In this document: in pieces, positions 969-46,271 of the stretch
Layout: every line of letters starts with the position of its first letter
Position numbering within the stretch: position 1 is the first letter of the stretch
DNA from: a virus
IMG/VR virus record: IMGVR_UViG_3300046804_005087
Span: 1 to 64,000 of that record
Strand: one strand, 5' to 3'
DNA length: 64,000 bases
Notes under the pieces: model-generated
The model's database searches: none
The model's input: only the letters and a program-made list of their open reading frames with translations
What the model was told of the DNA's origin: nothing
Made by a program: the position numbers and the translations under genes

Positions 969-1494
969 TAAATTCAAAACCGCATTTAGGGCAAGTGTGA
1001 TCAAACTCGTAACTGTCAGGGTCTATTTCTTGCGTGTTACCTTCATTCTCATCCCCATCCATATCATCTAATCCCCCCATATCATCCCCATCAATCGCCC
1101 CCATCAACCGCTCTAACTCACTATCATCAAACCCCAAATCATCCAGGTCGTAGCCACCCATATCAAGGGCTTCTAATTCCTGAGCTAAAAGCACCATATC
1201 CCAGTCAGTCTCAGCCAGCTTATTATCAGCGATTCTAGCTGCTTTAACCTGTTGGGGGGTCAAGTCATCACGGACAATAACCGGCACAGTTTTAAGCCCC
1301 ATTTGCAAAGCTGCTAACCGTCGCCCATGACCCTTAATAATGACCATGTTTTTATCAACCACAATTGGCTGATCGAACCCCTCAGCTATTTGTTTAACCA
1401 GTAGGTCAATCTGCTTTTGGGGATGACTCTTGGCATTGTTAGCGTAAGGCTTAATGTCGTCAATCGGAACGGTCTTAATCTGGTGATAATCCAT
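961..1494 (-). CDS. ParB/Srx-domain protein with C-terminal zinc knuckle
   Basis: 177 aa. The N-terminal ~100 residues are a ParB/sulfiredoxin-type domain: a VPIDDIKPYANNAKSHP start, then the GHGRRLAALQMG helix containing the conserved G-x-R-R. An acidic Asp/Gly-rich linker follows, and the end is CPKCGFEF. Phage proteins of this type are commonly encoded beside DNA methyltransferases, as here. They are not partition proteins and may bind DNA or hydrolyse nucleotide. The biochemical role is not established from sequence. Confidence 0.85.
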   Translation of the reverse strand: MDYHQIKTVPIDDIKPYANNAKSHPQKQIDLLVKQIAEGFDQPIVVDKNMVIIKGHGRRLAALQMGLKTVPVIVRDDLTPQQVKAARIADNKLAETDWDMVLLAQELEALDMGGYDLDDLGFDDSELERLMGAIDGDDMGGLDDMDGDENEGNTQEIDPDSYEFDHTCPKCGFEFND

Positions 1495-1537
1495 TGATTA
1501 CTATACCGATAATGTTGTTGCTTTTTCTATATTAATC

Positions 1538-1738: not shown

Positions 1739-2466
1739 TGGACAATCAAAATAAAGTGGTGTTGCTTGGGTTTTATGGTGGTGATAAAACCCATTGTTTA
1801 TCGGCTTGGCAATCAACTAATCTTGATTTTGAATATACTCAAGACATTAATTCTCGCATTCAAGTATTATTTGCTAACACTACTAAAAATAAGAAGAAAA
1901 GCCCCGCTGATTTGCTTAAGATGTTAGCAGACTATAATCATCATACACCTTTCGAGAAAAGCACTCTACACTTTCAAATTACAGGCGATATTGCTAGTCA
2001 TATTCACTGCTTAAAACATCGCATTGGCGTTTCGATTAATGCCGAATCAGCACGGTATAAAGAGTTAATTGATAAATGGTATATTCCCAATGACTGGGAT
2101 ATACCAGTTGACGATGTAACACATTTTGCAAGAATGTCGATTTTTGAAAATGCTGAGCGATGGGACTATGTACTGTCTCAGTATGTTGAGTTGGGGCATG
2201 AGCTTTACCATGAGGCAATTCAACAGTTAACGCCACATTTAGGGCGTAAACGTGCCAAAGAGTCAGCTCGGTATTTTCTGACCTACGCTAAACAAATTGA
2301 CCATGACATGATGTTTAATTTTCGGAGCTTCGTTCACTTCCAACAGTTACGCAACAGTGACGACGCCCAAAAGGAAATACGGGAAATTGCACAGTTAATG
2401 CTCGATCAGGTTAAGGCGATCCCAGGCAATCCTTTTGAATATTCACTAGCCGCATTCAACCTCTAG
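1738..2466 (+). CDS. thyX: FAD-dependent thymidylate synthase ThyX
   Basis: 242 aa, typical ThyX length. The ThyX signature is present as HRIGVSINAESARY (canonical RHR-x7-S with Lys for the first Arg). Other family features are NHHTPFEKSTLHF near residue 65 and the C-terminal FRSFVHFQQLRNSDDAQKEIRE, matching the usual R-x-F-x-L-R-x2-x-xAQ-E-I. It makes dTMP from dUMP with methylene-tetrahydrofolate, NADPH and FAD, supplying thymidine for phage replication. Dcd (54173) and NrdB (18608) belong to the same nucleotide-supply set. The 3' end overlaps the convergent gene at 2446 by 21 nt. Confidence 0.95.
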   Translation: MDNQNKVVLLGFYGGDKTHCLSAWQSTNLDFEYTQDINSRIQVLFANTTKNKKKSPADLLKMLADYNHHTPFEKSTLHFQITGDIASHIHCLKHRIGVSINAESARYKELIDKWYIPNDWDIPVDDVTHFARMSIFENAERWDYVLSQYVELGHELYHEAIQQLTPHLGRKRAKESARYFLTYAKQIDHDMMFNFRSFVHFQQLRNSDDAQKEIREIAQLMLDQVKAIPGNPFEYSLAAFNL

Positions 2467-2703
2467 TCGCTTGCGGCGGTGTTCCCACAATGCCAACGGT
2501 GCCTTGATGCCGGGCCAACCATCACACGACCGAAACCGATTAATAACGCGACTCACAACGTCCTCCCTAGCCCGCCAGTCGAGTCGTTCATGCAATAGGT
2601 CATCCGCATAGGCATCTTCAATTAGACGGGCAAACTCGCTTAGGTTAACAGGCGATAATCTAACCCGTGGGTAATCGGTCAAAACTCGATAGGACTTGAT
2701 CAT
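2446..2703 (-). CDS. hypothetical protein
   Basis: 85 aa from ATG 2703. This start is chosen over the upstream in-frame Met at 2718 because GGAGG lies 8 nt before it. Charged, Arg-rich, no recognisable domain. It lies immediately downstream of the inverted-repeat side of divergent module copy 1, with a TTAGGATAG motif 19 nt upstream. Confidence 0.55.
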   Translation of the reverse strand: MIKSYRVLTDYPRVRLSPVNLSEFARLIEDAYADDLLHERLDWRAREDVVSRVINRFRSCDGWPGIKAPLALWEHRRKRLEVECG

Positions 2704-2722
2704 GGCTTTTCCCTCCATACCA

Positions 2723-2867
2723 CTATCCTAAAACTGACTGTTTCACCCTCTATAAATTCCTTAAGAGGGTGAAACACCCTGGAACCTAGACAGGGTAAGG
2801 GTTTCAGAGTTTTAGGGCGTTTGGTATTTTAGGGATGTTGACAGTAAGGTGGTTGATTGTGTAGAAT
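2723..2867. promoter_or_regulatory. divergent regulatory module, copy 1
   Basis: On the + strand TTGACA (2838-2843), an 18-bp spacer and TAGAAT (2862-2867) form a strong promoter for the gene at 2900. The opposite side carries a perfect 11-bp inverted repeat, GTTTCACCCTC (2740-2750) and GAGGGTGAAAC (2765-2775), then on the minus strand TTAGGATAG (2723-2731) 8 bp further out. Length from TAGAAT to the outer end of the repeat is 128 bp, as in the five other copies. Confidence 0.85.
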
Positions 2868-2899: not shown

Positions 2900-3160
2900 A
2901 TGGCTTTATATGCTTTAGTCTCAGGCAATCAAGTTATGTATTCCGACGGAACGAAAGTGACCGTCAAACCTAAAAAACAATCTCCACGCAAAAAAGCTAT
3001 CAAGGTCGGATCAACTGTAATGGTTAATTTTGATTCCGAATGTATTGCTGTTACTACTGCAAAACGTCCAGATGGCTGGTTTGAATTTGAAATTATTCAA
3101 GGAAAAGACAAAAACAAAAAAAGTGCGTGTCACAAAAAGCTTTTAACGTTAATTGACTAA
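2900..3160 (+). CDS. hypothetical protein, basic
   Basis: 86 aa, Lys-rich, with an SH3-like pattern (VGSTVMVNF...WFEFEIIQGK). GAGG lies 10 nt upstream of the ATG. It sits directly under the strong promoter of module copy 1 and is therefore probably early. No family recognised. Confidence 0.6.
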   Translation: MALYALVSGNQVMYSDGTKVTVKPKKQSPRKKAIKVGSTVMVNFDSECIAVTTAKRPDGWFEFEIIQGKDKNKKSACHKKLLTLID

Positions 3161-4686
3161 TTCTCTAAGTCTTCCCCCGCTTCAAGTAGCCGCAAAATCG
3201 ACTCATAATCAGAGTCACTAAGGGGCAAGTCATAACTACTGCCAATTCGAGATAGTTTATCGGAGTCCTCTAACGTAGTGGACTCTGTTTCTGCCATATC
3301 CTGTCCATCTTGACTATTTTGAGCATCGTCCTCTGGCTCATTAGTCTCACCCATAGCCGCTTCAATTTCTGCCATATCGTCCTCATCTAGTGTGATGTTT
3401 ACCCCGAACTGACTACCACCGAACCGGGATTCTAGGATGGTTTCCGCCGGTAGTCCCAAAGCCGCGTACTTCTCATCAGCCTCAGCATAGATTTTATACT
3501 CATCCGCACGATCACGGTCAGATTTAACCAGGATAGATGGATAGGCGATTTCATACGCTAGGCGATCGCCAGTAATGCTAGGCATAATCAAATCGGTTAA
3601 CCGACATAGGTAGGGCGTAATGATATCGCTCTGGTAGTTACCGACCATTTCTGCCCATTGCTCATGATCGGATTTCCCCGACTCACTCATTGCCCCCTGT
3701 TTAGTCGAACCTAACAACCGACTACGGGTAATGCGACTACATGCCACAAACATATCAATTACTAAGTTAACTAGGCTATCAATACCACTGAAGGAACGGT
3801 TGATAAACCCCGCATCTTCCCTGGCGGCGTCCAAAACCATGAGATTAATTGACGACAAACCGACTTTAAAAAGCTCTAATCTGGTTTGGATATCTTTCTG
3901 TTTACCCTGTAGCACCATATCGGCTAGACCATCCATCTTGTACCAGAAACCCGATGCTGATTGTAGATAATTAGACGCGGCTTTACTGGTTAACGTCATG
4001 TCGCTAAAACTGTCAATTAACACCTCAATGACAGACCGATCTTTAAAATCATTGCGGTATAGCATCTCCCCTGTCAGTTCAACACCATAGAATCGTAATA
4101 CTCTATCAGGATGAATCTCAGGTACATAGCTAAAGTAGCCAGGTTTGAGGTCATCCATCATAGCGGTGTAGTGGGGGTCTTTGCCGTAGTAGCCGCGATT
4201 ATAACTAATCCTATCCCGTCCAAAGATAGCGCCGCTTCTGACCCCCTTGACGCTCTCTAAATCGACGGGCTCACTCAATTCTTTACCGTCGTCAATGTCT
4301 AAAACGATATGACAGTTCCCTTCAACATTGGCAATGATTAGCGCTTTTTTAATAGCATTTAGCCCATAGTGTTTAAAGCCGGCAATATCATAAAATACAA
4401 TCTCATCTAATCGTTGCTTAATCTCCGTTCCCAGATCTGTATCTTCTTCAAACTGCCATTCAGGGCATTGTCGCAAACTATCGACGGGGTAAGCCGTGCA
4501 AGCCGTGTTAATCAGGGGATTTATGAATAATTCGTAAGCCTCATCTAGGGTTAGTCTAGGTTGGTAATTGACTGCAATGTTATTGGCTAAGCCTAGTCCA
4601 TTAACGGTGTTGCTAACAGCACTAATCGCCCTCCCAAATACCCCATTGGCATCATTTAACCAGCTAACATGAAATGTATCAGTCAT
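3157..4686 (-). CDS. portal protein (DUF1073-type)
   Basis: 509 aa. It matches the DUF1073 portal family by overall plan: an N-terminal AVNYQPRLTLDEAYELF, a central RSVIEVLIDSF and the diagnostic GSTKQGAMSESGKSDHEQW stretch near residue 325, followed by a long acidic C-terminus. It would form the dodecameric DNA channel at the head vertex. It diverges from the terminase pair, sharing a 34-bp promoter region, which is unusual because portal and terL are normally co-directional. The stop overlaps the convergent gene at 2900 by 4 nt. Confidence 0.85.
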   Translation of the reverse strand: MTDTFHVSWLNDANGVFGRAISAVSNTVNGLGLANNIAVNYQPRLTLDEAYELFINPLINTACTAYPVDSLRQCPEWQFEEDTDLGTEIKQRLDEIVFYDIAGFKHYGLNAIKKALIIANVEGNCHIVLDIDDGKELSEPVDLESVKGVRSGAIFGRDRISYNRGYYGKDPHYTAMMDDLKPGYFSYVPEIHPDRVLRFYGVELTGEMLYRNDFKDRSVIEVLIDSFSDMTLTSKAASNYLQSASGFWYKMDGLADMVLQGKQKDIQTRLELFKVGLSSINLMVLDAAREDAGFINRSFSGIDSLVNLVIDMFVACSRITRSRLLGSTKQGAMSESGKSDHEQWAEMVGNYQSDIITPYLCRLTDLIMPSITGDRLAYEIAYPSILVKSDRDRADEYKIYAEADEKYAALGLPAETILESRFGGSQFGVNITLDEDDMAEIEAAMGETNEPEDDAQNSQDGQDMAETESTTLEDSDKLSRIGSSYDLPLSDSDYESILRLLEAGEDLEN

Positions 4687-4720
4687 ACTATTAAAATAAT
4701 CTTAATAGTATTATTTTAAA
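4687..4720. promoter_or_regulatory. divergent intergenic region, portal/terminase
   Basis: A very AT-rich gap with an inverted repeat, TACTATTAA / TTAATAGTA (4686-4694 and 4702-4710). The minus strand reads TTAAGATTA just before the portal ATG, a weaker version of the TTAAGATAG late-type motif. No sigma-70 -35 box is visible. Confidence 0.45.
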
Positions 4721-5074
4721 ATGTCTAAACACTCTACTAATGATGACAATAAACATATTCAGTTAGAGATTGTCCCAACTGGTCAAACTGAGTTAGATTT
4801 TAACTTGGCTGAAATTACTCGCAAACACTACAAGATACAATCGTCGATTGTCGGTAAACTTTACAAGCAAGTCGATAAACACGCCGCGTCTGATTTGACT
4901 GTAGCGGAAGCAAAGCAGGTAGCGGATACAATTAGAAATTTATCTATATGGGCTTCCAACTTCCACGAAAAGTTAACAATTGTACAGCAGAATGAGGCTG
5001 AAAAGATTATTGCGTTAGGCGGTGCAATTGACTATGAAAATTTAACCCAGGAGCAAAAAGAACAATGGTTGTAA
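4721..5074 (+). CDS. putative small terminase subunit
   Basis: 117 aa, mostly helical and charged. The assignment rests on position and size, directly upstream of and overlapping terL, as TerS genes usually are. No clear HTH is visible. TerS would recognise the packaging start and recruit the large subunit. Confidence 0.5.
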   Translation: MSKHSTNDDNKHIQLEIVPTGQTELDFNLAEITRKHYKIQSSIVGKLYKQVDKHAASDLTVAEAKQVADTIRNLSIWASNFHEKLTIVQQNEAEKIIALGGAIDYENLTQEQKEQWL

Positions 5075-11374: not shown

Positions 11375-11519
11375 ATTCTACACAATCAACTGCCTTACTG
11401 TCAAAACGCCATTTTAGCCAGAATCCCTAAAACTCTGAAAGCCTTACCCTGTCTAGATTACAAGGTGTTTCACCCTCTTAAGGATATTATAGGGGGTGAA
11501 ACAGTGGGATTTAGGATGG
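11375..11519. promoter_or_regulatory. divergent regulatory module, copy 2
   Basis: Minus-strand TTGACA (11399-11404), 18 bp, TAGAAT (11375-11380) drive the ASCH-like gene. Inverted repeat arms are GTTTCACCCTC (11467-11477) and GGGGTGAAAC (11493-11502). TTAGGATGG lies at 11511-11519, facing PhoH. The length between outer boundaries is again 128 bp. Confidence 0.85.
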
Positions 11520-11547: not shown

Positions 11548-12312
11548 ATGGGACGCCAACGCCAACGTCGAGTTGATACTGCTAGCTGGGATGACGTTGA
11601 GTCGTCCTATTTTTTTGACAACGTAGTGCCACTAGTCCCCAACCGCAAAACTTTCAAGCCTCTAACCCCTAATCACCATCGGTTAATCCACCATATCCGC
11701 AATAGTCCGATCACGATAATCAATGGGCCCGCCGGTAGTCTCAAAACGTTTCTGAGCTTGCAGACCCTGATACAGCTAATCGACGATGGCACTTATGACA
11801 AAATTGTGTATATCCGTCAGCGTATTCAACGCCCCCATGAGCCAGAATTGGGCTCTTTACCGGGCGATAAGAGTGAGAAGCTACACAAACTACTTGCGCC
11901 GATTTTGGATAACCTGGAGGCGATTCTAAGTCCCTATGCAGTTGACGAATTCATCAAAACTAAAGTTGAATGTTCTGATATTGAATCGTTGCGGGGGCGA
12001 TCACCGTTACGGTCTTGCCTATTCTGTGATGAGGCGCAAAACTGTGATTTAACAGCGCTAGAGACTATCATGACCCGTCGCACTGAATGTTCTAAATTAG
12101 TACTGGCTGGGGATTTTAAAGGGCAACGGGATATTTTAGACCGGGAATTTGATGCTTTTGAGTTGGTTTGTAATGAATTTGAAGGCAAGTTTCCAATCAT
12201 CCATCTAACAAAAAATGACATCCTACGGTCTGAGACTAACAAGGATGTCATCACGGGTTTTGAACGAATTAAAGAACGATTACAACTTATTGGTGTTTGT
12301 CCCCCTGCATAA
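11548..12312 (+). CDS. PhoH-family ATPase
   Basis: 254 aa. Walker A is GPAGSLKTF (about residue 61; the usual form is GPAGTGKT, so Gly before Lys is replaced by Leu). Walker B and its signature are FCDEAQNC (about 160), followed by AGDFKGQRD. PhoH proteins are frequent in cyanophages; their role is uncertain (RNA metabolism or phosphate-stress linked). It is preceded by the inverted-repeat side of module copy 2. Confidence 0.88.
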   Translation: MGRQRQRRVDTASWDDVESSYFFDNVVPLVPNRKTFKPLTPNHHRLIHHIRNSPITIINGPAGSLKTFLSLQTLIQLIDDGTYDKIVYIRQRIQRPHEPELGSLPGDKSEKLHKLLAPILDNLEAILSPYAVDEFIKTKVECSDIESLRGRSPLRSCLFCDEAQNCDLTALETIMTRRTECSKLVLAGDFKGQRDILDREFDAFELVCNEFEGKFPIIHLTKNDILRSETNKDVITGFERIKERLQLIGVCPPA

Positions 12313-13461: not shown

Positions 13462-13848
13462 TCGCCGTTGCCAGCGCCCCATGCTATCCAGTTCGGTAAC
13501 GCCATGATGACTATCGGCATGGATGAAACCAGTCCCGTTACTAATGCCTAGATGGTAGGGTATTTTCCCAAAACTAAATAACAATAAGTCCCCCGCGCTA
13601 ATCTCAGTTAGGGGGATTTGTTTTAAGTATTGAATCGACTGCAAAAATATTAAAATCTCATCCCCTTCTGGCATCTTAGCATAACAGTTAATATCGCCAA
13701 ACTCAAAACCCAAACTATCTTTAAATACCGCTTCAATAAACCGGACACAATCCACCCCATGACCTATTAATTTTTGATTATGTTGCCATGGAGTATTAAG
13801 CCATTTTCTAGCTTCGATTAAGATTCTTTGTTGATATTTTGAAACCAT
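13426..13848 (-). CDS. NlpC/P60 cell-wall peptidase (tail-associated)
   Basis: 140 aa. Catalytic Cys in GHGVDCVRFIEAVF (about residue 32) and His in IPYHLGI (about 98), followed by FIHADSHHGV, match the phage NlpC/P60 family encoded with distal tail genes. It would cleave peptidoglycan stem peptides at the tail tip during entry. The start overlaps the RecB-like nuclease by 31 nt. Confidence 0.85.
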   Translation of the reverse strand: MVSKYQQRILIEARKWLNTPWQHNQKLIGHGVDCVRFIEAVFKDSLGFEFGDINCYAKMPEGDEILIFLQSIQYLKQIPLTEISAGDLLLFSFGKIPYHLGISNGTGFIHADSHHGVTELDSMGRWQRRLVDAFRIDINK

Positions 13849-14444
13849 TGTAATCGCTTTAAGAACTCATCAAAATAAGCATCGATGATTGACGGTGCTT
13901 TTAGATTAAATAACTGACAGTCCCCATTTTCTGGGATTATAACCACCGATGCTTGATTTACATTAACACAATCTAATTCTTTTAACGCATAACTATAGGC
14001 AGCAACTTGCAATAGGTAGTTTTTAACTTGACTAGGGGACTTAGTTTTTTTAGCAGATTTCCAATCAAATAATATTAGGCGATCGCCATGATAGGCAAGA
14101 CAATCGAGACTACCACTAAAACCCAATTCAGAATACACTTGATGTTCCCACACAATAGGCTGAATGTGTTTCAAAACCGTATTCAAAAGCTTATCAAATA
14201 ACTCCGATTGTTTGGCTTTTGTGTTGTTTAAAAAATAGGATTCAACGTCATCGTGTAATTTTAAACCACGGTCTAGACATCGTTTAGATTCTTCAGGATT
14301 ATCTTCTCGCCATTGCTTAAAATCATAGTCGCTAGTAGCGTTTAAAACTGTTGTCACTCCTGGTAACTCACCAATAGGAGTGACGTGATATCTTGCCCCT
14401 TTTTTGTAACTGTACTTAGCCTCACGACGGGGTAGTTTAATCAT
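13818..14444 (-). CDS. PD-(D/E)XK (RecB/Cas4-like) nuclease
   Basis: 208 aa. The nuclease core is GFSGSLDCLAYH followed by LILFDWKSAKK (catalytic D...D-x-K), then Q-V-x-N-Y-L-L-Q-V-A-A-Y, the helix typical of RecB-family exonucleases. GVTTVL at the N-terminus is also common in this phage group. It is probably a single-strand exonuclease for recombination or replication. It is oddly placed between tail-type genes. Confidence 0.82.
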   Translation of the reverse strand: MIKLPRREAKYSYKKGARYHVTPIGELPGVTTVLNATSDYDFKQWREDNPEESKRCLDRGLKLHDDVESYFLNNTKAKQSELFDKLLNTVLKHIQPIVWEHQVYSELGFSGSLDCLAYHGDRLILFDWKSAKKTKSPSQVKNYLLQVAAYSYALKELDCVNVNQASVVIIPENGDCQLFNLKAPSIIDAYFDEFLKRLQWFQNINKES

Positions 14445-14478
14445 AGCAATATAGATAGTTTGCTAGACTATATTAAAC

Positions 14479-14557: not shown

Positions 14558-14998
14558 TTAATCAAACTGATTGGGTTTGTCTTTAACTTCTTGGTAGTAT
14601 TGCCAGTAAAACTGAGTCGGATCTTGTGGGCCAACGGCTTCAATTGCTTTGCGACAAATTGACTCAAAAATCACAGAGATTTCTAACAATTCGGCATCAG
14701 CGGCAATCTTAGAAACCATATTAGCCGTGCGAGTGTAAATCAGATTTAACCCTTTAGCAAAACTACCGGGAATCCCGGCAATATTTGCCGCAATGTCGAT
14801 AAACCGTAGGCGGTATTGAATCTGATTAATAACGGGTAAATCTTCATCATTGTACTCTTCGGCGTCTAAATTCAGGGCGTTAATTGCCGCCTCTAAACTT
14901 GCAAATTCAGCCGTCAGGTCTACCCCTTTAGGAGTGTTTTTCTTAGCCTGATTCAATCCTTGAATCATTTGATTGCGCCAACGTTCTAACATGCTCAT
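14558..14998 (-). CDS. hypothetical protein, helical
   Basis: 146 aa, largely helical, no family recognised. GAGG precedes the ATG at 14998, and a TTAAGATAG motif lies 30 nt upstream, the same arrangement as in front of tail and lysis genes, so it may be a late virion gene. Confidence 0.6.
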   Translation of the reverse strand: MSMLERWRNQMIQGLNQAKKNTPKGVDLTAEFASLEAAINALNLDAEEYNDEDLPVINQIQYRLRFIDIAANIAGIPGSFAKGLNLIYTRTANMVSKIAADAELLEISVIFESICRKAIEAVGPQDPTQFYWQYYQEVKDKPNQFD

Positions 14999-15028: not shown

Positions 15029-15037
15029 CTATCTTAA
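15029..15037 (-). promoter_or_regulatory. late-type TTAAGATAG motif
   Basis: Exact minus-strand TTAAGATAG, 30 nt upstream of the gene ending at 14558. It interrupts the end of the long leftward cluster. Confidence 0.6.
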
Positions 15038-17924: not shown

Positions 17925-18190
17925 CTAAGAACTTTAGACAAATTAAGTACCATGTTTGTTTTAGCCGGTGTAACCTTGACTTCCCGACTGGCTATCAATT
18001 GATAGGCTTGACGCCCTGCTAAGGCTTCAATTGCATCAGCATCGGTGGCAAATTGGGGCAAGTTTAAATCATCAAAAATCAGCGTTACCGAATTGGGTAA
18101 AAGTACCGTCGTCGTAAATTGATTAATAGCGATCGCCGTTTTAGTGGGGGCAAAATTCAGACGGGTATAGGTAGGGGAAATGTCAATCAT
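17903..18190 (-). CDS. hypothetical virion-cluster protein
   Basis: 95 aa, overlapping both neighbours (22 nt at its 3' end, 8 nt at its 5' end), so tightly coupled in the fibre operon. No domain recognised. Confidence 0.6.
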   Translation of the reverse strand: MIDISPTYTRLNFAPTKTAIAINQFTTTVLLPNSVTLIFDDLNLPQFATDADAIEALAGRQAYQLIASREVKVTPAKTNMVLNLSKVLSWLRRVF

Positions 18191-18578
18191 TTTCTGTCAC
18201 CTCTGGCATTACCTGAACGAATCCCACTGCCAAGGAATAAACCACGCCATCCAAGGCAATTTGCCAGTCCCACACATAGCAATTTTTAAGGCTAGGCGTT
18301 TTAGTTCCCCCTTGATATTCTGTTACCGGCAAAAGCAGGGTTTTAGCTGGCGTTAGGTATGGGTGAAACGTTGTTAAATCGGCTTCAGCGTCATAGGTAG
18401 CGGCGGAATGGTCAAAAGTCGCCAGAAGTTCACCCTCAGCAACTAAGTAATTTGTGCGGATCTCAGACTTTGGAGTCCACAGCGTCCAATCCCCCGACAA
18501 TTCAGGCTTCCAGAGGTCAAACGTTGCCCCCCGGATAATCGCCAAATCGTCAATTAAATCAACCTTTTGCCGTGCCAT
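18183..18578 (-). CDS. hypothetical virion-cluster protein, first gene of fibre operon
   Basis: 131 aa, beta-rich (IIRGATFDLWKPELSGDWTLW...CYVWDWQIALDG). Its start is 24 nt downstream of a TTAAGATAG motif, which makes it the first gene of the operon running to 15260. The pattern resembles small phage tail or BppU-like N-terminal domains, but this is weak. Confidence 0.6.
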   Translation of the reverse strand: MARQKVDLIDDLAIIRGATFDLWKPELSGDWTLWTPKSEIRTNYLVAEGELLATFDHSAATYDAEADLTTFHPYLTPAKTLLLPVTEYQGGTKTPSLKNCYVWDWQIALDGVVYSLAVGFVQVMPEVTEND

Positions 18579-18602: not shown

Positions 18603-18611
18603 CTATCTTAA
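18603..18611 (-). promoter_or_regulatory. late-type TTAAGATAG motif
   Basis: Exact minus-strand TTAAGATAG in the short gap between nrdB and the fibre operon, 24 nt before ATG 18578. Confidence 0.65.
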
Positions 18612-19636
18612 AAATCGTCCCAGCCGCTAACACCTGACGACATAACATAGCTAGTAACAGTAGCCTCAAAGAAATTGGCTTTAGTATGAGCTTGTTTACC
18701 GGTATCCGCAAAGTTTTCTAGGTGTCCATAGGGTGACTGATTAAAGCCTGGGAAAATTTCATCTAAGCCAATTGCTTTTAGTCGTTTATTAGCAAGAAAC
18801 TTAACGTACTTTTCAGTTGAATCTTCTTTGATGCCTAAAATGTCATTACCAATAATATGGTTAGTCCAATTGATTTCTTGCTTAGCCGCCTCAGCAAAAA
18901 TTTCATAAATCTGGTCAAGGGATGGCTTGAACGTGACGATCGCCTCTGGTAAAATCTTTTGATATAACCGAACGTGGCTTAACTCATCGCGATTAATCAT
19001 GCGAAAAATATCGGCACTACCCGCCATTAATTGACGACTAGCTAAATTATAAAAGTAATTAAATCCAGTGTAAAAATAAAGCCCCTCCAACACGTAATCT
19101 GCCAGCAATGCAATAAAATAGTTTTCATCACTAGGGTCATCCACATACTTTTGATATAAGCCTGCAATATACTGGCATCGCTCTAAAAGCACCTTATCTT
19201 CCCGCCAAAAGTCATAAACTTTATCTCGTTTTTCTGTTGGGATAATAGTTTCAATCATGTATTGATAGCTCTGGTTATGCATTCCTTCTTGGCTAATTTG
19301 TTCTGCCATGCACAGACTAATTTCGGGGGCAGTAACTGGTAGTTTTAAATGGGGAATGTTGCAAGTTTGCACAGAATCTAGGAAGGTTAAATAGGATAAA
19401 ATACCATCAAAAGCCCGACTTTCACTATCGGTTAAATTGTTATAATCGGTAACATCAGCAGTCAGATCAATCCGTTGCGGGATCCAGAAATTCTCACGCA
19501 TTTGTTGATATAAACTAACTGCCCATTGATACCGGACATCATTAAGTTGCATAAGATTTGTTGTTTCCCCAAACCACACAGTCCGAGACTCAATAGCATC
19601 GTTACCAGATGGATTAAAAATAGGTGTTGATTGCAT
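18608..19636 (-). CDS. nrdB: ribonucleotide reductase class I small (beta) subunit
   Basis: 342 aa, usual NrdB length. Metal ligands and radical Tyr are visible: Asp in YLTFLDSVQ, Glu/His/Tyr in SQEGMHNQSYQYMI, Glu in DYVLEGLYFYTGF, and Glu/His in NRDELSHVRLYQ. It should carry the dimetal cofactor that generates the radical for NDP reduction. No large subunit (NrdA) is present in the window; it may lie outside, or the phage may pair with the host NrdA. It sits inside a run of virion and lysis genes. Confidence 0.93.
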   Translation of the reverse strand: MQSTPIFNPSGNDAIESRTVWFGETTNLMQLNDVRYQWAVSLYQQMRENFWIPQRIDLTADVTDYNNLTDSESRAFDGILSYLTFLDSVQTCNIPHLKLPVTAPEISLCMAEQISQEGMHNQSYQYMIETIIPTEKRDKVYDFWREDKVLLERCQYIAGLYQKYVDDPSDENYFIALLADYVLEGLYFYTGFNYFYNLASRQLMAGSADIFRMINRDELSHVRLYQKILPEAIVTFKPSLDQIYEIFAEAAKQEINWTNHIIGNDILGIKEDSTEKYVKFLANKRLKAIGLDEIFPGFNQSPYGHLENFADTGKQAHTKANFFEATVTSYVMSSGVSGWDDF

Positions 19637-19677: not shown

Positions 19678-19938
19678 TCAACTTACCTCGTATTGTTTAG
19701 CCCATTTAGCTACATCAGAATTAAATTCTTCAATAATAGGCTTTATTCTTACTTCGGAATCTACGCAAATATTAAAATTCTTTATCCAATCAATTCCTTT
19801 TTGAGCAATGCTAATTTGTCGCTTATACTCATTGACCGGACGAGTTTTTTTCATTGCAAGTGATTCAATGGTCGCCAATGTACAATCAGTCATATAAACC
19901 AATGCATAGTCTGGGCTTGAAATATGTAAGGGACTCAT
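19678..19938 (-). CDS. hypothetical protein
   Basis: 86 aa, Lys-rich helical, sharing ATGA with the stop of the endolysin gene upstream. The coupling suggests a lysis or post-lysis role, but no membrane segment is visible, so it is not an obvious holin. Confidence 0.55.
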   Translation of the reverse strand: MSPLHISSPDYALVYMTDCTLATIESLAMKKTRPVNEYKRQISIAQKGIDWIKNFNICVDSEVRIKPIIEEFNSDVAKWAKQYEVS

Positions 19939-21416
19939 AAATTAATAGGAGGGACGTTAATTTCAAAATGGAAGTGATGGTGATGACCTCGAACTGACCG
20001 ACATAATTCTTTTTGAATTAGATGAGGGTCGTTAAAATAAATGCTTGATTTTTTAACCGTAGGACAGGCATTGATAGATCGCAACATTGCCTCAGCGGTT
20101 ACTCTATCGTAATTACTGCTTAGATAGTCAATACCCCCATTACCGCCATCTTTACGGGGCAAAAATACATCGCATGACATACCTGTTTCATGCCCAGCAT
20201 GGTCGGGCGTATTGCCGCCGTGGGGAAGGCTAATGTCATTAATAGAAAACAGCGCGGCGTTAGGTTTTTTGCTGCGATAATTGTCATGGTAATGTTTAGC
20301 AATCCACAGAATAGCGCCCGCCATCCAATTAGTACCGTAGTCATGATGGTCATGAGTTTCTTCTAACTCTTGATTGCGATAACTGATTGCTTTATTTGTG
20401 TTAGGCATAATTTGCCAGCGTGGGGCATTATCTGCATTTAACCACTGATGGGTTTTAGCATTAACATCTACCCGACCATCACTGTTAACCGTTGTTTGCC
20501 CATTGATAATCGACTGGAATAATCGAATTATTTGAATGGTTTTAGCGCCTACTTTTCCGTCAACATCACCAATGGGATAACCTAATTCTTTTAACTTGGT
20601 TTGCACTTGGATGACATCATCTTTATTGTTTTTGCCCCCATTGCCAACGCTACCCGATAATTTAATATCTGCTTTTACCGGCTCAGGCTTAACAGTAGCA
20701 AAAACCTCAATATTAAACGATTGGCTATCATCTCCACTACTGAAAGTAATTTGGCGATCGCCAGGGGTATTCAACACAAGGTCATAATCTATTAGCCCAT
20801 CCTGTACTTGACAATCGGGTAATTCAAAACGACTATCTGCCATCACAGTTAACAAGGCATTAGGATCACCGTAGTATTTCCCGATGACAGTTACAGGCTC
20901 ACCTACACTGGCTTTGGCAGGGTAGTTAATCAGGTCAATTTGGCTAGGTGCAACAGGGTTTGCAGACTCAATTGGCTCTAACCACAATTTCCCTTCTTCT
21001 GTACGGCGGTTAACCAGTCCTGACAGTGTTTTACCACCTCCCTTGACATACAGCATCATTGCCGTTGGTACACCCGCTAAATCGCTTTGTAACGCCCGGG
21101 TAATCGTCTCAAACCCCTTAGCGCCATAAAAGCCCGCGCCCAGATTCCACGCAAAGGACAATAGCGCCCCCTGTTGATTGCGATTCAGCGATCGCCATAT
21201 GGGGATTTTCTGCAACTCTGGCAAAAAGTCGTCTTTAATTTGTTGCCTCAATAACTTATCGGCTTCCACTTCATTGGCTAATTTGTCGCCCCGCTTAACC
21301 GCCCTGCCATTAATGCGAGTCGAACCGTATCCCACTGTATAAACCTTGGCGGGACATAGGTACGCATTTAGTCGCAAGCCCTCCCATTTTTTGATTAACT
21401 CAATACCCTTATCCAC
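19935..21416 (-). CDS. modular endolysin: GH24 muramidase + PG-binding + M74-like endopeptidase
   Basis: 493 aa, starting with GTG 21416. Residues 1-145 are a GH24 (T4-type) lysozyme: Glu12 in KKWEGLRLNAYL, Cys21 and Thr27 fit the E-8-D/C-5-T catalytic triad. A beta-sandwich linker (~155-245) follows, then a PG_binding_1 domain near 265-305 (VQTKLKELGYPIGDVDG). The C-terminus (345-493) resembles MepA/M74 LAS metallopeptidases: SLPHGGN, HAGHETGMSCDVF and HHHHFHFEI supply the His/Asp zinc ligands. It would cleave both glycan and peptide bonds. No signal peptide, so a holin should be needed. Confidence 0.85.
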   Translation of the reverse strand: MDKGIELIKKWEGLRLNAYLCPAKVYTVGYGSTRINGRAVKRGDKLANEVEADKLLRQQIKDDFLPELQKIPIWRSLNRNQQGALLSFAWNLGAGFYGAKGFETITRALQSDLAGVPTAMMLYVKGGGKTLSGLVNRRTEEGKLWLEPIESANPVAPSQIDLINYPAKASVGEPVTVIGKYYGDPNALLTVMADSRFELPDCQVQDGLIDYDLVLNTPGDRQITFSSGDDSQSFNIEVFATVKPEPVKADIKLSGSVGNGGKNNKDDVIQVQTKLKELGYPIGDVDGKVGAKTIQIIRLFQSIINGQTTVNSDGRVDVNAKTHQWLNADNAPRWQIMPNTNKAISYRNQELEETHDHHDYGTNWMAGAILWIAKHYHDNYRSKKPNAALFSINDISLPHGGNTPDHAGHETGMSCDVFLPRKDGGNGGIDYLSSNYDRVTAEAMLRSINACPTVKKSSIYFNDPHLIQKELCRSVRGHHHHFHFEINVPPINL

Positions 21417-21444: not shown

Positions 21445-21453
21445 TTATCTTAA
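21445..21453 (-). promoter_or_regulatory. late-type TTAAGATAA motif and leader hairpin
   Basis: Minus-strand TTAAGATAA, 28 nt upstream of the endolysin GTG. Between them is a short hairpin, AACCCT/AGGGTT (21419-21443), that could affect translation start. Confidence 0.55.
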
Positions 21454-23658: not shown

Positions 23659-24360
23659 CTAATGCTTAATTACCAGCGTTGTAGTTTCCGGTAGATTAGC
23701 GTCTGGGTAGCACAATCGCCATACGTCATGAGAATACAAGTTCTTCCACTCAAAACGAGGGCAGGGAACTCGCTTAATTTCCTTTTTGAGAAACAGACTC
23801 ATTGCTTTTAGCTTGCGCCATTTAAACTTTGTTTCAGAGACATCATTAAACTTGGCGATACGGACAATGGAACTGTAATCGAACAACTCATCAACAGCTT
23901 CTGACAACAGTTCATTTTCTTGCTCTAGCAGTTCCTTTTCAGCCTGTGCCTTCTCAAGTTCTAACTGCAATCGCCCCGCTTCTAACAATGCTTCCCCGTA
24001 GGATTTCGGGATATTGGCGATCGCCGTTGACTGGACTTCAAACCCTGCTAGTTTGTGCAACGAAGCACGAATTCCTAGTTTAGAAAACTTTTTTAGCAGT
24101 GACGGATTGTCTTTTTCTAGCCAATCAGCCATTGTATTTTCGTCGATGAGCCGTACTCCTTGAATCCCTTGCCCTGTCTGGATTTCAGCCGATTTAAAGT
24201 TGTCTTTCCGTACCCCTCCCATCCGTGACGATATGGTGGTTTTTGGGACACCACTCATTCGGGAATAGCCTGCTTGAGTCGCAAAGCTTTCGCCGGTTTG
24301 GGTATTGATGACCAATTCAATCCCATCTTTGTCAAAACGTTCGTAACTTACAATACTCAT
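23659..24360 (-). CDS. antirepressor-like regulator A
   Basis: 233 aa. The first ~120 residues (MSIVSYERFDKDGIELVINT...TGESFATQAGYSRMSG...LHKLAGFEVQSTAI) are near-identical to the protein at 53123-53851. The C-terminal halves differ: here a coiled coil (~130-165), then a KFKWRKLKAM region. The layout, a conserved N-terminal recognition domain and a swapped C-terminus, is typical of phage antirepressors. GGAG precedes the ATG. The leader hairpin is described separately. Confidence 0.65.
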   Translation of the reverse strand: MSIVSYERFDKDGIELVINTQTGESFATQAGYSRMSGVPKTTISSRMGGVRKDNFKSAEIQTGQGIQGVRLIDENTMADWLEKDNPSLLKKFSKLGIRASLHKLAGFEVQSTAIANIPKSYGEALLEAGRLQLELEKAQAEKELLEQENELLSEAVDELFDYSSIVRIAKFNDVSETKFKWRKLKAMSLFLKKEIKRVPCPRFEWKNLYSHDVWRLCYPDANLPETTTLVIKH

Positions 24361-24420: not shown

Positions 24421-24425
24421 CTACT

Positions 24426-24434
24426 CTATCTTAA
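24426..24434 (-). promoter_or_regulatory. late-type TTAAGATAG motif
   Basis: Exact minus-strand TTAAGATAG, 65 nt upstream of regulator A. TTGAGT lies 17 bp before GATAGA, so a sigma-70 reading is also possible. Confidence 0.45.
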
Positions 24435-26584: not shown

Positions 26585-26607
26585 CCCCCATTTAGGGGGA
26601 TTTTTTT
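26585..26607 (+). terminator. rho-independent terminator
   Basis: CCCCC-ATTTA-GGGGG then A and seven T. The T-run overlaps the stop codon of the convergent tape measure gene. Another G5/C5 hairpin lies at 26528-26543. Confidence 0.85.
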
Positions 26608-29600
26608 ATCTCATTTTACGCCGATAAACCCGTGCCCCCTCATCCTGAATCTGAGACTGGGAACGTCGGAAACTATCAGCATTAGGCGTGACCACGGTAT
26701 AAGACTGGGTAAAGTTATTGACTACCTGATTGCGTTGATTAGAAATAGCTTGACGGGTCTGGGGACTAGGCAGCATTGTCTCCATGCCCCAATTACCGCG
26801 ATAGTTGCGACTATCGTTATAGAGTCGGTCAGTGCCATTAGCAAAACTAGGAATGTTGTCCCATACCCCCGTCCGTTTCAAAGCCCGAAACTTTTGAGCG
26901 TCGCCATTGAGCGTGGACAGGATAGCTTCCCCCTGATTGACTACGGCTAACATTGGCTGTTGCCCCGTTTGGGCTTTTTCCTTGGCCATCACCGCGTCTA
27001 TGCCGTTAGCAAAATTCAAAATATCAACGTTGTCAATCCCTTCAGCAAAATTCAAGATGTCAACTTCATCAGTCCCCATAGCAAATGCCGGTAACTGTAC
27101 GGTATCGCCGGTATAACCTGAAGTGGGGATGAAAGCGCTAGCTGCGTTAGCCGCTCCAAACCCACCTGTAAACAGACCGGTTAACCCATCGGCAATCGTC
27201 CCAAATAATCCACCACCACCCGCTTGCATCGCAAACTGATAAAGCGATTGAGTTGCAATCTGGAGAGCGTTCACAAATTGTAATAACGCCGATTGCTCCA
27301 TACTGATACTGGTATTGGTGAAGCCTGTTAACGCTCCGGTAGCAGCCGTTAACCCCACTCCCATTTGTTCGGTCATCGTGGGGATAATGTCAGTGGCGTT
27401 ATTCAGTGATTCAGTAAAGGGAACAATGGGATTTTGTTGATCCGTAGTCAGGGTAGCAGTCCCTAACTGAGTAGCAGTTTTAAACACCGAACCGGCATCA
27501 AAGCCCCCGCCATTCTCCGGGGTAGGCATATTGGGGGAACTGTAACCAAACATGTCGGCTGTCCACTGGCTTAGGGTGTTCGTGACGGGTTTGAGTACCA
27601 GTTGGTCAAATATCTGACTTGCCATTACATCAAGCAATTTAGTAAATGCCTGGGTAAAGTTGTTAGTCTGGAAAATCGCCTCTTTAAGATTGGCTCCCAA
27701 TTCTTGAATAAAGGGGATAGCTTCTCGGAAAGACTTCTGATAATTAATCTCTGCTAATTCCTTCGATTGGGCGATAAAATCAGCTTGCGCTTGCCCCGTT
27801 AACCCCAAAGTTTTAGCCTCAGCTAACGCCCGTTGTTGAACAGTATCCAGTGCCATTTTGGCTTGAATAATCGCCCCGTCATTGACCAACGTACCGCCCA
27901 AATCGTAACGTGCTCCACTGATAGAAGCCATCAAACTAGCCGCTTTATCTAGGTAGTTTAGTTGCTTCTCAAGATAAGCATTATTAAACGCATTAGCCGC
28001 GGCAATGTCACGGGTCGCTAATAGCTGTTGTTTTTGGGTTTCCAGGATGCCAGATTGTGCATCGTATTGGTCAATCAATGCCCCAATCTTGTCATATTCT
28101 GACTGTAACAAATCAGTGTTTAATCTAAGCTTTTTACCTTCCAAAATAGCCCATTGCTTAGTAGCTTTGAGGGTTTCCTTTTCTGCCACAAACAAAGCTA
28201 TCTCACGCTGTTTATCTTCAATAGACCGTATTTGTTGAGTATAGTTCTGGAAGGTATCAATGCCAGATTGCCGCGCAGATTCCATGATGGTTAAAAACCC
28301 TTTGGCATTACGGGTCATCTGCAAAATAGATAGGGATTGGTCATTGATTGTACGGTCAGTCTCAATAACCGTGCGTTGCAGTTGGATACTAAATCCCGTT
28401 ACATCATCAATTAGTTGGGCAAACTTCTCAATACTGTCTTGCTGAATCCCAGCCATCCGCATTTGAATTAATTGCTGATTTAATGCCGTTAGCCGGTTAG
28501 CCTGTTGGATTAACGGATCGGTATTAACTTGTACCGGCTTAGGCAATGCCTGACCAGCATCAAAGCCTTGTAACTGTACCTGACTAGGATTTAATTCCCG
28601 GTTAACAGTATTCATAAATGACTGTTGTTTGACCGTGGATAGATTAAATGGCTGAGCCGTTAACGGTTGGTAATCAATTGCCTGGGGTTTGGCAGTAACA
28701 GCCGGGACGGGTTTGGTTGGTTTAGCTGTTTGGGGATTGCTAGGCTTAGCCGTGGTTTGATTGACTGGCTTATTAGATTGAACGGTTACAGTGTCGGCTT
28801 GGACAGTAAAACCATTAGCCTTAGCGGCATTATTAAACTGCTTTTGAATCCGTTCATCACCATAGGAATTGTTAGCTAATTTAACCGCAACATCAGCTAA
28901 GTTTGTGCCCTTTGGCAAAAAGTCTTTATTGTTACGGGTGAAGGTACGTGCAAACTCTAAAAGAGTTTCTGGCTTATTGCCCATCAATCCCTCTAGTGTG
29001 TTACCAATACTGTCAATTAATCCCCCTAATTGTGCAGTCTGTCCAAGTTCAATCCCTTCAGGAATACCAAAGTTGAGCTTAGATTGCAGTCCTAGTGATC
29101 GCCGCCGCTGAATGGTTTCATTGATGGCATCCCCAGCACGGTTAGGGGAGATAGAAGCACGATTGCCACCTGTGCCGGCATAACGTGATTGTCCGGTAGT
29201 CCGACCCGCTTCTGGGTATGCTAAGCCGATGCTAGCCCATTCCCGTGCTGATGATTGGATCGCCTCAGTTAACGACCCATTACGACCACTAGATAAAATG
29301 TAATTGCCAAGTTGAGGACGTTTATTTTTGATTAAGTCAATTGCCAATAAATGCTGGGTTTCGGGCGTAAATGGTGCATTTTCTAATCCTGTACGTTTTG
29401 CCGCACTTTTTAACGTGGAAGGAATAAACTGATAGGCTCCTACCGCATATAATTGACCGGCATTTTGTTTGGCGATAATTTGATTAACAGTTATTTGCTC
29501 AATTGGTTTTTTAAACAATGACTGTAAGTTTTGACCGCTACTATCACCAGCTCGACCGCGATTAAAGGAACCATAGCCACCTTCCCCACTACGAATCAAA

Positions 29601-32600
29601 CGTAACAAAGGCTCGAACGATTGAATTTCAAGAGACTGGTTAGATTGCGGTTGCCATTGGTTTTGTTGTGGCTTAGGTTGCTGTACTCGCTGTGATTGGT
29701 ACGGATTGCTAGCCTTATTAACCAATCCACCATAGGCATTAGTGTACTGGTCGAGAATATAGCCGCCATTTTGATTAGCGTTCATTGCCCCGTTAAAAAT
29801 ACGGGGATCGCCAGGGGCGTAATCAGACGGGTTGAATTGCTGCAATTGTTGTGTAACCTGTTCCCAACTTCTTACCGGCTTAGCCGTATCATATTCAGGT
29901 TCATAAACGACTTGCCCATTGTCACCAACATAAACTTCCCCTTTAGAACTCTGGGTCGGCAATGCCATTTCATCAGTCCACAAACTAGGATTGTTATTAT
30001 TAATTGTCGTCTGATTTGTTGCCTGATTATAAATAATTGATGACTTTGCACCGTAATTATTAGCTTGGGGAATCGCCGTGTTAGGACTGTAATTAAACTT
30101 ACTACCAAGGGCGTTAGTTAATGTCTTAGACTCAGGGCTAGATTTATCATTGCGAGTAATCGTCCGGTATAAATCTTCAAACGCCCGCCGTAGATTATTA
30201 GTCGAATCGGTTAAGCCCCGTTGCAAGTCAACATAAGAACGATTTAACTGCCTTACTTGGCTGTCATATTCCCGTACATTTTCAATGTATTGTTCTTCGA
30301 TTTGGCGTACCTGACGTAATCGACTAATCCGTTCTTTTTCCAGATTTAAGACATCGATCTTGATTTGTCGTTCATTGGTTTGATTACTAAATAACGATTC
30401 AGTAAATCGCAACACCATCGCATTTAATTGACGGGCGGCGCTGTTAGAATTGCCAGGGGTAATGCTTAGGTTTTGGGTACGGAGCTTGGATAATTCTATG
30501 TTGCCTTTGGCATCTTCTAAAGACTTTTGGACTGTTTCAATTTGAATGTTAAAATCAGCGCCTAGGTCTTGATAGGACTCGATTAGGTTGCGATTAGATA
30601 AGCGTAATTGACGACTTGTTTCTGCTACCTGAAGCCCAAAATCTTCAATAGAGCGTTGATCTTGGATAGCTTGCTGTTCAATTTGCCGGTTAAGATCATA
30701 GACCTGGCGGGCGGTAGTCCTGAAATAGTCCTCTATTGTAAAGTCCATTTTAAGGTCATATTCAGCCTTAGCAATACTACTTGCCAGTCCAGACAATTCA
30801 ACAGATTGTTCTCTTACTGTTTTTCTTAATTCTTCAATTTTGGCGCGTTTTTCTGATACATCACCAACGTTAGAAATTGATAAGGCTTTGCGTAATGCAA
30901 GGTCGTTTTCTCGCAGTGCATTAGCTGTTATTTCGTAATCACGTCGGTAGCTTTCTAACGCCACTAACTGACTTTTACGATTAACTACCATTGACCCACC
31001 GCCCTCTTTATAAATTTGGGTGTTTGTCATATTAGTTTGGATTGTATTTTGCGATTTTAGCCGGTCTAACTGGGACTGTACATCTAAAATTTTATTTAAT
31101 ACCCGATCCCACGCATCTTCTAACGGCTTAGCAATATCACTAATGCCTTGACCCGCAAAATAGTTTTTAATGTCATCAGCCAACTGTTTAACAGGTTCTA
31201 ACGCTGCATTAGCTCTTTCTTGAGCAGCCAATGGTAAACCAGAGTTTTTAATTGCCGCCGTTGCCGATTCTACATATTGACTTAAATCCTTAGAGTAGGA
31301 ATCAAGGTCAATAAATGGCTTAGCTAGTTCTTTTCGCGTCTTTAACAGATTGTTTAAATCTTTGTCAATAGACTGTATTTGTAATCGAGCTTGAGCAGTA
31401 TTCTCTAGTCCTAGATTAGTCCGTTGGTCTGACAACTGATTACGTTTAGCGTCAATATCTTTTATTTGTTGAACAGCATTTAAGCCAGTATTGCTTAATG
31501 GTTTTGACAAATCATTAACATCAAAAAGGGTGTTATCTTTTTGCAGTCTTTCTTTAATGTTTTTGTAATCCTGCTCATAACCAATCAACGTATCTAGCAA
31601 TTGATTTTCTGCCATCGTAGGCGGCAATCCAACTTGCTGGGGAAAATAATCTTGAATACCTAATCGTTTAGAAGCTTCAATTCTGTCTTTCGTATTTTCC
31701 ATTATAGCCGGACGATTTAACTCTGCCCAAAAATTCATTAACGGGTTTTTAGTGTCTTTGGCTATTTTTTTTAGACGTTCGTATCCTGTGATTAATTGTT
31801 TAAATTTTTCTCTTTGTTGCAGAATAAAGTCATCAGACTTAAATGATTTCTCAGTGCGTCCAAAAAAGATAGTTTCAAAACTTAACTCTAACCCCTTAGA
31901 TGGCAACTTGATTGAGTTAATTTTTGAGTTAGTATCTTTAGCTTGCTCACCCAATGATTTTAAAGCCGACTTCATTGCATCGGTAGAACCAATTAAAGCG
32001 TTACGTGCCTTGTTAGATTCAGCTTCGATATTGTTAGAAAAGTCACTACGGGCAAATGCCATTACTCCTATTGCCAAAGCAGCCTCAGCGGCAATCATCG
32101 CTGTTCCCATTGCCAATCGTTGCGCCGCCATCTGTTTAGTGCGACGATTCAATAGCTCATCACGTTTAGCTTGATAACGAACTAACGCATCTTTTTCAGG
32201 ATTCAAATTACCATCTCCCATCATGGATTCACGACGGGCTTGGTATTCCTGTTTGAGCTGTCTTAATTCCTGTTGATTGTCAGCAATAGCCTTTTCTCTT
32301 GATATAGTCGAGCCGGTAGCCCGTGAATAATCAGACTGATAATTCCGAATGATTGATTCCCGTTTTTGCTTATATTGCATTAACGTATCAAGCGATGAGT
32401 CTAACTCTTTTCGTAATACGCTAAATTCACTACCAAATCGACTCATTACGTCTGTTTTTGTGACCCCTGACAATGAAATCAGCGTGCCACCAAAAAGGTC
32501 GTCTATTGTCCGTTTCATTGTACTTGCATTAATTACGGCATCTTTAACGGCTTTGCCCCATCGTCCTAATGCCATTGTCAAATTATTTAAAGTTGGCATT

Positions 32601-35600
32601 ACAAACATATTTCCTAATACTCGCACCTGTTCAAACATCAAAACAAGTGCAGTCATTTCAATGACACCACTGGGAATTGTTTTAATGAAAGATTTTAGCC
32701 CATCCGTAATAGCAGAAAATGGATTGCCTCGCTCAATAAAGGGATCAAACATTGCCCCCATACCACCATCGCGCATCCCTCGGTCAATGCCAGTAAATAA
32801 TGCCGTAAACATATTGCCGACACCTTTACTCATGTTTTCCATGACACTATTTTTAGCACCTAGGACATCATCCATAACATCGGCAATTGTTCCAATTAAA
32901 AAAGGAGTTAACGTGCCTAGCGTATTTTTGAAAACAGAGAATAATAGGTTACTTCCCCCCTTAGCGATATTGGCGATCGCTGGGGTTTTCATGATGTAAC
33001 TAACACCAATCCCAATAGACGCCCAAACGGCAATTAAACCCGAAACAGCTAATGTATTAAGAATTTTAAAATTGCTATTTACTAAACCTAAAACATTAGC
33101 CCAAGTTGATTTAACAGTAGTAAATAATCCACCGTAAGTATCAGCAAAATTCTTATTTAACTTAAAGTTGAGATTCTGAATTCTTGTAGTAGCACTAGCA
33201 TAGTTGTCCCCCATAGACAGCGCCGCTGTTCCAAAGTCCTCTTTTAAGACTTTACTAACAGCCCCGACCCATTTTTCCGTGCCAATAGCACCACGGCTTA
33301 CCATTTCATCTAATCCCGCCGTTGTAGTATTTAACGCCTTGGCAAATACAGACATCGCCGGAGGGAATCGCTCACCCAATTGTTGACGTAGTTCTTCCAT
33401 GCTGATTTTGCCTTTGCTTAGCATTTGAGTATATGCCATGAAGATTAAATCAGCATCTTGAGTGCTTAATCCTAACGCTCGAATGGAGGCAGAAATACCT
33501 TCAAATAGGTCTAACATTTCCTGTCCGGTCAGATTAGTATTTCGAGCGGCGATCGCCATTTGGCTAAAGTTTTGTACCGCTGGCTCAATAGGAATCGAAT
33601 ACTTTTCAGCAATGCCTGTTACCTGGCTTTGTTTTGCCCCTCCTAACGTTGTGTTTCCTTCGAGAGTAGTAAAGCGTTGTTTAATTGGTTCTTGCTGCAT
33701 TAAAGCCTGATCTATGCGTTGCACAATCGGCGCAATTAACGTACCAATACCCAGACTAGCCATTGCCGCAGGGATCAAGGGCATAGCCAAAGGCGCGGCG
33801 GCGATCGCAGGGGCAAGACCAGGAGCAAACGTAGTAGCACCGGCTACGGCAAACGTCATAATCTGGTCAATCAACCCATTGGCTGCTTCACCTTTAAGTT
33901 TTAATCCCTTAATCAAAGATGACTTAAGCGTCCCAAAGAAGTTATCGAAATACTCCTCAGTTCCTTCTACGGCTAAATTACCAGCATGATTACCCAATGC
34001 GGTAAATTGGCGATTAAACCGAGTGTTAAGGTTTTTAATTTCATTGTCTATCGCTTTAATTTGGACGGTATCAACTCCATTCGCTTTTTTTGACAATTTT
34101 AACCGTATATCTTTTAAATAGTTAATAGTTAAGATAACTTCTTTTTTGATAGATTCTAATTCTTCTTTTGAATCAGAACTATCAATTTTTTGTAAAAGCT
34201 CTTGTCTTGCCTTTTTGTTTGTGCGTGAGCGTTTATGACCGGCAACTTCATAAAAAGGTACGTTGACAGGCTTGGAATTAATATTGTAATCTAGCCGTCT
34301 TTTCCGTTTTTCCCCGGTCGCATTAGTTGGAGCTTCTAACGGACTCGATAATAATTGAGTTTGTTCATTATCATTGTTAACAACTGAATGAAGTTTTGGG
34401 ATTGGGAATTTCTCATAATCAAATCCCATTCTGCCAGCCTCGTTTTTAGACTGAGTAAATAGCTTGACACTATTCGCCGTTATCGACTCAATTTGTTTAT
34501 TGACAAAGCTTGCTGTTTTTTTCCAGTTTTCTCGAATCCAATGGGTCGGGCCAGGTGAACCCTCAGACAAATTCTTTTGCAACGGATAGGCTTGTTTTTT
34601 CGCCGTTTCCGTCATTTCTACCATGTCAATCTGTACAGCATTAGCTGTTTTATCCCAATTCTGCTCAATAGCCTGATTAGGCTGAGATTGAATTTGTTTA
34701 ACATCAATAGAGTTCACTAACTGCATTTTTTTAGTAAGTTTAGTAAACACTCTATCTGTTGCCTCTTCCAATTCATATATAGATACAGTTAAAGCTTCAA
34801 CACTATTTTTTGTATCAACAAATATAGTCTGCTTTGAAACACCAGTAACTTTATAGTTTCCTGACACTAACGACTTTTTTTCTTTTTTGTAATCATAATC
34901 AGGGTCATCAGCTAACCCAATAGCATTGTAAGGAATGTCAAAACCTTTTCGTGGATTTTTAATGCGATAAATGCTGTCGCCTTTTTGTAGATTGACCGAC
35001 CCTTGATTTAATCCAACACCAGACAATACAGACACTAAGTCACCAGTAAATGACTTGGGATTGGCAAAGTTAACCTTATCACCTAGTGAATGATTTGCAT
35101 CGCCGGGATGCATTCTGATTAAATTGCTGTAATTAGTTTTACTGACAAGTGAAAGTAACTTCAAGTTTTCATTGTTTGCGATTTTATTGTTAGAACTTGA
35201 CACTACTCTTCTACGAATAGCCTTTAATGTATCTGGGTTTAAAGATTCGCTACCGTTGGCAGTAAAAAGTTTAGTGGCATTATTTGATAACGCACTTAGT
35301 TTTTGCATTATCTTTTTTTCTGCCTGTGTCAATGACTCACTAGCCCCAATCTCTAAACCTTGACCGATGGCTTCTCCAACCTTAATAAACTTTTTAGATG
35401 GCGAATGACTATCAATGGCTTTTTTGGCAACATCAATAGACTGAGTCATTGTCGATTCTACAGACTCAAAAACGATATTTTTATTGGCATTAACACCACT
35501 TCCTACACCATCAGGAATTGACTTACCAACACTACCGGCATCCCGTTTTAATTTAGAAACATCAGGCATTTCTACAGCATTAGCATCAAGCGTTATGCCC

Positions 35601-37927: not shown

Positions 37928-37936
37928 CTATCTTAA
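37928..37936 (-). promoter_or_regulatory. late-type TTAAGATAG motif
   Basis: Exact minus-strand TTAAGATAG, 36 nt before the tape measure ATG. Confidence 0.65.
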
Positions 37937-46239: not shown

Positions 46240-46271
46240 TATAGCCACTGTAATCAATTAATCTATACGCG

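Follow-up and report, generated by a model that had tools for sequence, protein, structure and literature searches.

The late promoters of phage T4 have a TATAAATA-type consensus. Served by gp55, gp33 and the gp45 clamp, they consist of a -10-like element only (PMC7892883, PMC2988020). The phiEco32 gp36 promoters likewise have a single element, tAATGTAtA, with transcription starts 6-8 bp downstream (PMC8948821), and the gp47 late promoters of Salmonella phage 7-11 are bipartite (GTAAtg-(16)-aCTA). Among phages of cyanobacteria, freshwater Ma-LMM01 is described as lacking gp55 and using SigA-like promoters throughout infection (PMC5780444).

The virus studied here is represented by a 64,000-nucleotide stretch of DNA (the window), in which the consensus of the candidate promoters is TTAANATAR. 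It resembles phiEco32 in having one nine-letter AT-rich element, no -35 box and a phage-encoded sigma-70-family protein, a candidate for the role that the sigma factor of phiEco32, which has no detectable region 4, plays at middle and late genes (PMC8948821), but differs from it in consensus and in its probable cyanobacterial host group. With T4 it shares the -10-like element, a sigma region 2 protein and a phage-encoded clamp; however, the clamp is DnaN-type rather than a gp45 trimer, and the adjacency of the clamp and sigma genes does not amount to functional coupling. The TATAAATA-type consensus of T4 did not fit the sites, and because the consensus differs and neither gp33 nor a clamp-binding tail was identified in this phage, we do not class it as a T4 system. 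As in Salmonella phage 7-11, a phage sigma factor would redirect the host polymerase to late genes, but from one element rather than a two-part consensus, and with Ma-LMM01 the phage probably shares a cyanobacterial host but not its reliance on SigA-like promoters. This kind of system is already known; what is new, as far as our search reaches, is its consensus, the group of phages that has it and the pairing of clamp and sigma genes. A literature text search, in which sequence logos are not searchable, did not find the motif strings as promoters in the papers it listed.

Source record and related genomes

The window is part of a 66,812-base virus record (G000). The sigma protein described below led to G002, a 52 kb record that is nearly identical, and to a diverged relative of 72,660 bases (G001), whose proteins are mostly 40-90% identical to those of the window and whose gene order is rearranged. 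A third lineage consists of two records from the same metagenome, G003 (22 kb, found via sigma alignment) and G004 (18 kb, found via terminase alignment). Searches of the phage collection found neither near-identical DNA nor a match to the G003 head protein. A cyanobacterial host is probable, since cyanobacterial homologues (Synechocystis salina first) share up to 77% identity with the NrdB-type protein. The window's 66.8 kb record is probably incomplete, as nothing in it matches the genes for head protease, decoration protein and major head protein that G003 and G001 carry. An NrdB gene ending at 72637 and a gene starting at 10, at the two ends of the G001 contig (G001:C1), are neighbours in the window, and the G001 genome is therefore probably circular or circularly permuted.

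A gene-oriented motif upstream of start codons

The preliminary description had singled out TTAAGATAR as a candidate phage-specific late promoter lying 22-65 nt upstream of seven genes and oriented like the gene in every case. All seven sites are present at these spacings (motif end to start codon), and an eighth, related string faces one of them:

18603..18611, minus strand: TTAAGATAG, candidate promoter, 24 nt before 18183..18578, overlapping the stop codon of an nrdB-type gene (18608..19636)
15029..15037, minus strand: TTAAGATAG, 30 nt before 14558..14998
21445..21453, minus strand: TTAAGATAA, 28 nt before the endolysin gene 19935..21416
24426..24434, minus strand: TTAAGATAG, 65 nt before the regulator-like gene 23659..24360, whose leader can form a hairpin
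37928..37936, minus strand: TTAAGATAG, 36 nt before the tape-measure gene 26606..37891
47132..47140, minus strand: TTAAGATAG, 24 nt before 46688..47107
47117..47125, plus strand: TTAGAATAG, facing copy, before a plus-strand gene starting near 47149
52650..52658, minus strand: TTAAGATAG, 22 nt before the tail gene 49805..52627

A motif search against a background model returned nine copies of TTAAGATAR in the window, compared with 2.07 +/- 1.43 in dinucleotide shuffles, none of which (0/100) reached nine. Seven of the nine precede same-strand genes by 22-65 nt, and the two intragenic copies that had been pointed out are real, at 55532 (minus) and 34129 (plus; earlier placed at about 34127). When one mismatch was allowed anywhere in the nine-letter string, no significant excess was seen in the window (28 vs. 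20), because position 5 of the motif is free: the true element is wider than first seen, TTAANATAR (N = G, T or A) plus variants such as TTAGGATAG, and in orthologue upstream regions TTAAGATAR is replaced in place by TTAATATAR or TTAAAATAR. Further sites of this wider element, including the related strings already noted at 2723, 54139 and about 11511, are as follows:

4691..4699, plus strand: TTAAAATAA, 21 nt before 4721..5074, which adjoins the large terminase gene
4711..4719, minus strand: TTAAAATAA, 24 nt before the portal gene 3157..4686
1527..1535, minus strand: TTAATATAG, 32 nt before the ParB-like gene 961..1494
14468..14476, minus strand: TTAATATAG, 23 nt before the exonuclease-like gene 13818..14444
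46236..46244, plus strand: TTAATATAG, 27 nt before 46272..46691
54139..54147, plus strand: variant TTAGGATAG, 25 nt before the dCTP deaminase gene 54173..54745
11511..11519, plus strand: variant TTAGGATGG, 28 nt before the PhoH-like gene 11548..12312, the weakest site of the set
2723..2731, minus strand: variant TTAGGATAG, close upstream of 2446..2718

TTAANATAR occurs 71 times across the window's record, G001, G003 and G004, and 30 of these copies are followed by a start codon on their own strand at a distance of 20-30 nt, compared with none of the 21 copies of each of the reversed and complemented controls of equal composition; about 30% of the motif copies are more than 200 nt from a downstream start, and these are mostly intragenic. 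An exhaustive 7-mer count over positions -50 to -11 of 201 genes, to which the motif was not given beforehand, placed the two cores of the motif at the top, with TAATATA first (22/42 copies upstream vs. 0.8 expected, p ~5e-27) and TAAGATA second (18/42 copies upstream, p ~2e-20). Gene starts were taken from our own simple caller, and the motif counts and p-values include related sequences, so that the p-values are to be read as guides. The motif was not in excess in the distant terminase contigs G005-G007, and the window had no match in Rfam.

Genes served and conservation at orthologues

The genes served had been described as mostly tail or lysis genes, which applies to three of the seven: PHROGs assigned 19935 as endolysin, 26606 as tape measure and 49805 as a tail protein. 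The remaining four did not bear this out, with a match of unknown function for 18183, a weak transcriptional-regulator match for 23659 and no PHROGs family for 14558 and 46688. The motif also precedes the portal gene, the neighbour of the large terminase gene, dCTP deaminase, exonuclease-like, ParB-like and resolvase-like genes, the head maturation protease gene of G003, and regulator genes of KilA-N/Ant/Bro-type or related. The dCTP deaminase, exonuclease-like and PhoH-like genes are not classically late. Since the genes served reach beyond tail and lysis functions, "non-early" is the safer label.

Site conservation was assessed in orthologue upstream regions, a site being counted as kept at a score of at least 7/8. 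Where the window gene has a perfect site, its orthologue kept the site in 18 of 19 cases, compared with 7 of 30 for genes without one (Fisher p = 6e-7), while the N position changes freely. In G001, and with d for the distance to the start codon in nt, the orthologue of 18183..18578 carries TTAAGATAC at d 27, that of the regulator-like gene 23659..24360 TTAAAATAG at d 77, that of the tail gene 49805..52627 TTAAAATAT at d 21, that of the plus-strand gene near 47149 TTAAGATAA at d 22, that of the ParB-like gene 961..1494 TTAAGATAG at d 28, and the counterpart of the tape-measure gene 26606..37891 TTAATATAA at d 25. Orthologues of the endolysin gene 19935..21416 carry TTAAAATAA at d 24 and d 29, those of the dCTP deaminase gene 54173..54745 carry TTAAGATAG at d 22 and TTAATATAG at d 24, and for 46688..47107 TTAATATAG is found at d 24 in G001 and at d 28 in G003. 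In divergent intergenic regions, facing motif pairs lie 6-11 bp apart with each copy pointing at its own gene, and for the pair at the portal gene all three lineages show the same gap of 11.

The regulator genes (KilA-N/Ant/Bro-type or related) have their late-type motif further upstream, at ~60-75 nt. A leader hairpin of the form CCCCCAG-loop-CTGGAGG occurs in most copies of these genes (window positions 24358-24440 and 53849-53930, both minus strand; L004, L005 and L021), possibly as a translation control.

Promoter anatomy and a second promoter class

In an alignment of 40 sites chosen by the motif, strong information was confined to the nine positions, with isolated weak columns elsewhere. 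The lack of a -35 box proposed earlier is borne out, as TTGACA showed no excess in the -35 region (mean 3.08 matches vs. 2.94, a value equalled or bettered by 17.5% of shuffles), and an extended -10 TG was found in 0 of 39 motif copies. The column 20 nt upstream of the motif weakly prefers G/T (P of maximum ~0.01), which leaves room for an upstream contact. The spacing to start codons suggests that the motif sits at the -10 position. Overall, positional, comparative and compositional evidence supports a phage-specific promoter class of the -10-only kind, and the motif observation holds more strongly than the preliminary description had stated.

A separate and disjoint class, TTGACA-type with a TAGAAT-like -10, lies before the sigma gene and before 2900, 61167, 21469, 10705 and 12287, and none of these genes has a late-type site in the range listed. 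The copy before the sigma gene is:

40279..40308, minus strand: TTGACA-N18-TAGATT, an early-type promoter located 105 nt upstream of the sigma gene

A candidate sigma factor beside a sliding clamp

The candidate reader of the motif and its upstream neighbour are encoded as follows:

39445..40173, minus strand: sigma-70-family protein of 242 residues, region 2 only at the Pfam cut-off, candidate motif reader
40620..41744, minus strand: DnaN-type sliding clamp

The 39445 protein scores 27.5 bits for Sigma70_r2 (Pfam cut-off 24) and matches sigma-70 factors across residues ~69-158. The best fold matches of its structure model, which is of low confidence (pLDDT 57.5, three-sequence input), are sigma factors, and gp55 is not among the fold matches listed. 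Pfam region 4 was not found in the protein, C-terminus included; in hhalign the C-terminal helices align weakly with sigma-70 region 4 (two region-4 sequences), and the C-terminal 50 residues may represent a degenerate region 4. The protein had no match in the phage collection or in the genome-contig collection. It is 57-69% identical in the two other lineages. The sigma-70-family protein and the motif occur together in three lineages, and in each of them the sigma gene has a DnaN-type clamp gene as its immediate upstream neighbour, in the same orientation. On the other side, the 3' end of the sigma gene overlaps that of a convergent gene with a weak repressor-like match (38717-39448, plus strand), whose orthologues in G001 and G003 also adjoin the sigma gene.

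Proposed mechanism and alternatives

We consider it likely that TTAANATAR is a -10-only non-early promoter of an uncultured cyanobacterial phage group, read by the 39445 sigma factor. That the sites act as promoters, where transcription starts, its late timing and the reading of the motif by this protein are what we infer, the link between sigma factor and motif having their co-occurrence as its basis. In the proposed scheme, the motif would be the sole recognition element of a phage-specific promoter class for non-early genes, and host RNA polymerase carrying the 39445-40173 sigma factor would recognise it at -10 through sigma region 2, with no -35 contact. Transcription would start ~6-8 nt downstream of the motif, leaving leaders of ~13-22 nt at most sites. 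As the sigma gene stands behind a host-type TTGACA promoter, early transcription by the host holoenzyme would supply the sigma factor, which would then turn on virion, lysis and other later genes. It is quite unlikely, though tempting to speculate, that the region-2-type sigma factor and the DnaN-type clamp act together and thereby restrict late gene expression to phage DNA that is being replicated, outside the T4 group.

Read instead as the -10 box of host SigA or another host sigma factor, perhaps with a phage activator and with the phage sigma factor serving elsewhere, the motif would gain from the match of TAANAT to the loose TANNNT pattern, from Ma-LMM01, which reportedly has only SigA-like promoters in all phases (PMC5780444), and from the clamp-gene variants TTATGATAG and TTATAATAG, which are more sigma-70-like in appearance. 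We find this unlikely, given that the sites have neither a -35 box nor an extended -10 TG and that the flanking T1, A8 and R9 matter in addition to the -10 hexamer (TAANAT without the leading T clusters weakly, with 14/433 copies at d 20-30). Moreover, enrichment is absent from 240 kb of mostly cyanobacterial DNA (39 copies vs. 52 for the reversed control), and the same genomes hold separate TTGACA promoters.

That the motif is no promoter but is bound by a repressor or another regulator of the phage is highly improbable: it is indeed short, repeated and intergenic, and in the Nostoc phages A-1 and N-1 such motifs were suspected of being stoperators on the ground that their orientation relative to genes is inconsistent (PMC4916379), whereas copies here consistently point gene-ward with a spacing sharp at 20-30 nt, and in facing pairs each is aimed at its own gene. 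We give hardly any credence to an RNA or translation signal within the 5' leader, which the position shortly upstream of start codons would suit, since the distance grows to 58-77 nt where regulator genes have longer leaders, the site is identical in leaders with and without hairpin potential, and in places (18603) the motif overlaps upstream coding sequence.

The reading as a promoter for a phage sigma factor provides a readable map of non-early transcription units in a phage group for which no cultured relative was found, and defines a specific candidate sigma-promoter pair. If true, a cyanobacterial case would join the few phage sigma factors known to need no -35 box, and, with the clamp and sigma genes conserved as neighbours, a coupling of late transcription to replication could be tested directly in a phage other than T4.

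Intergenic palindrome cassettes

A 34-bp palindrome like TTTCACCCTCTTAAGGAATTTATAGGGGGTGAAA recurs as an intergenic repeat at 2741-2774, 11468-11501, 21944-21977, 40372-40405 and 54095-54128. TTGACAGTAAGG lies at one side of it, promoter-like in four of the five cassettes (no -10 is evident at 54031), and TTAGGATAG or TTAGGATGG at the opposite side in three of the five. The cassette has the look of an operator flanked by one early and one late promoter.
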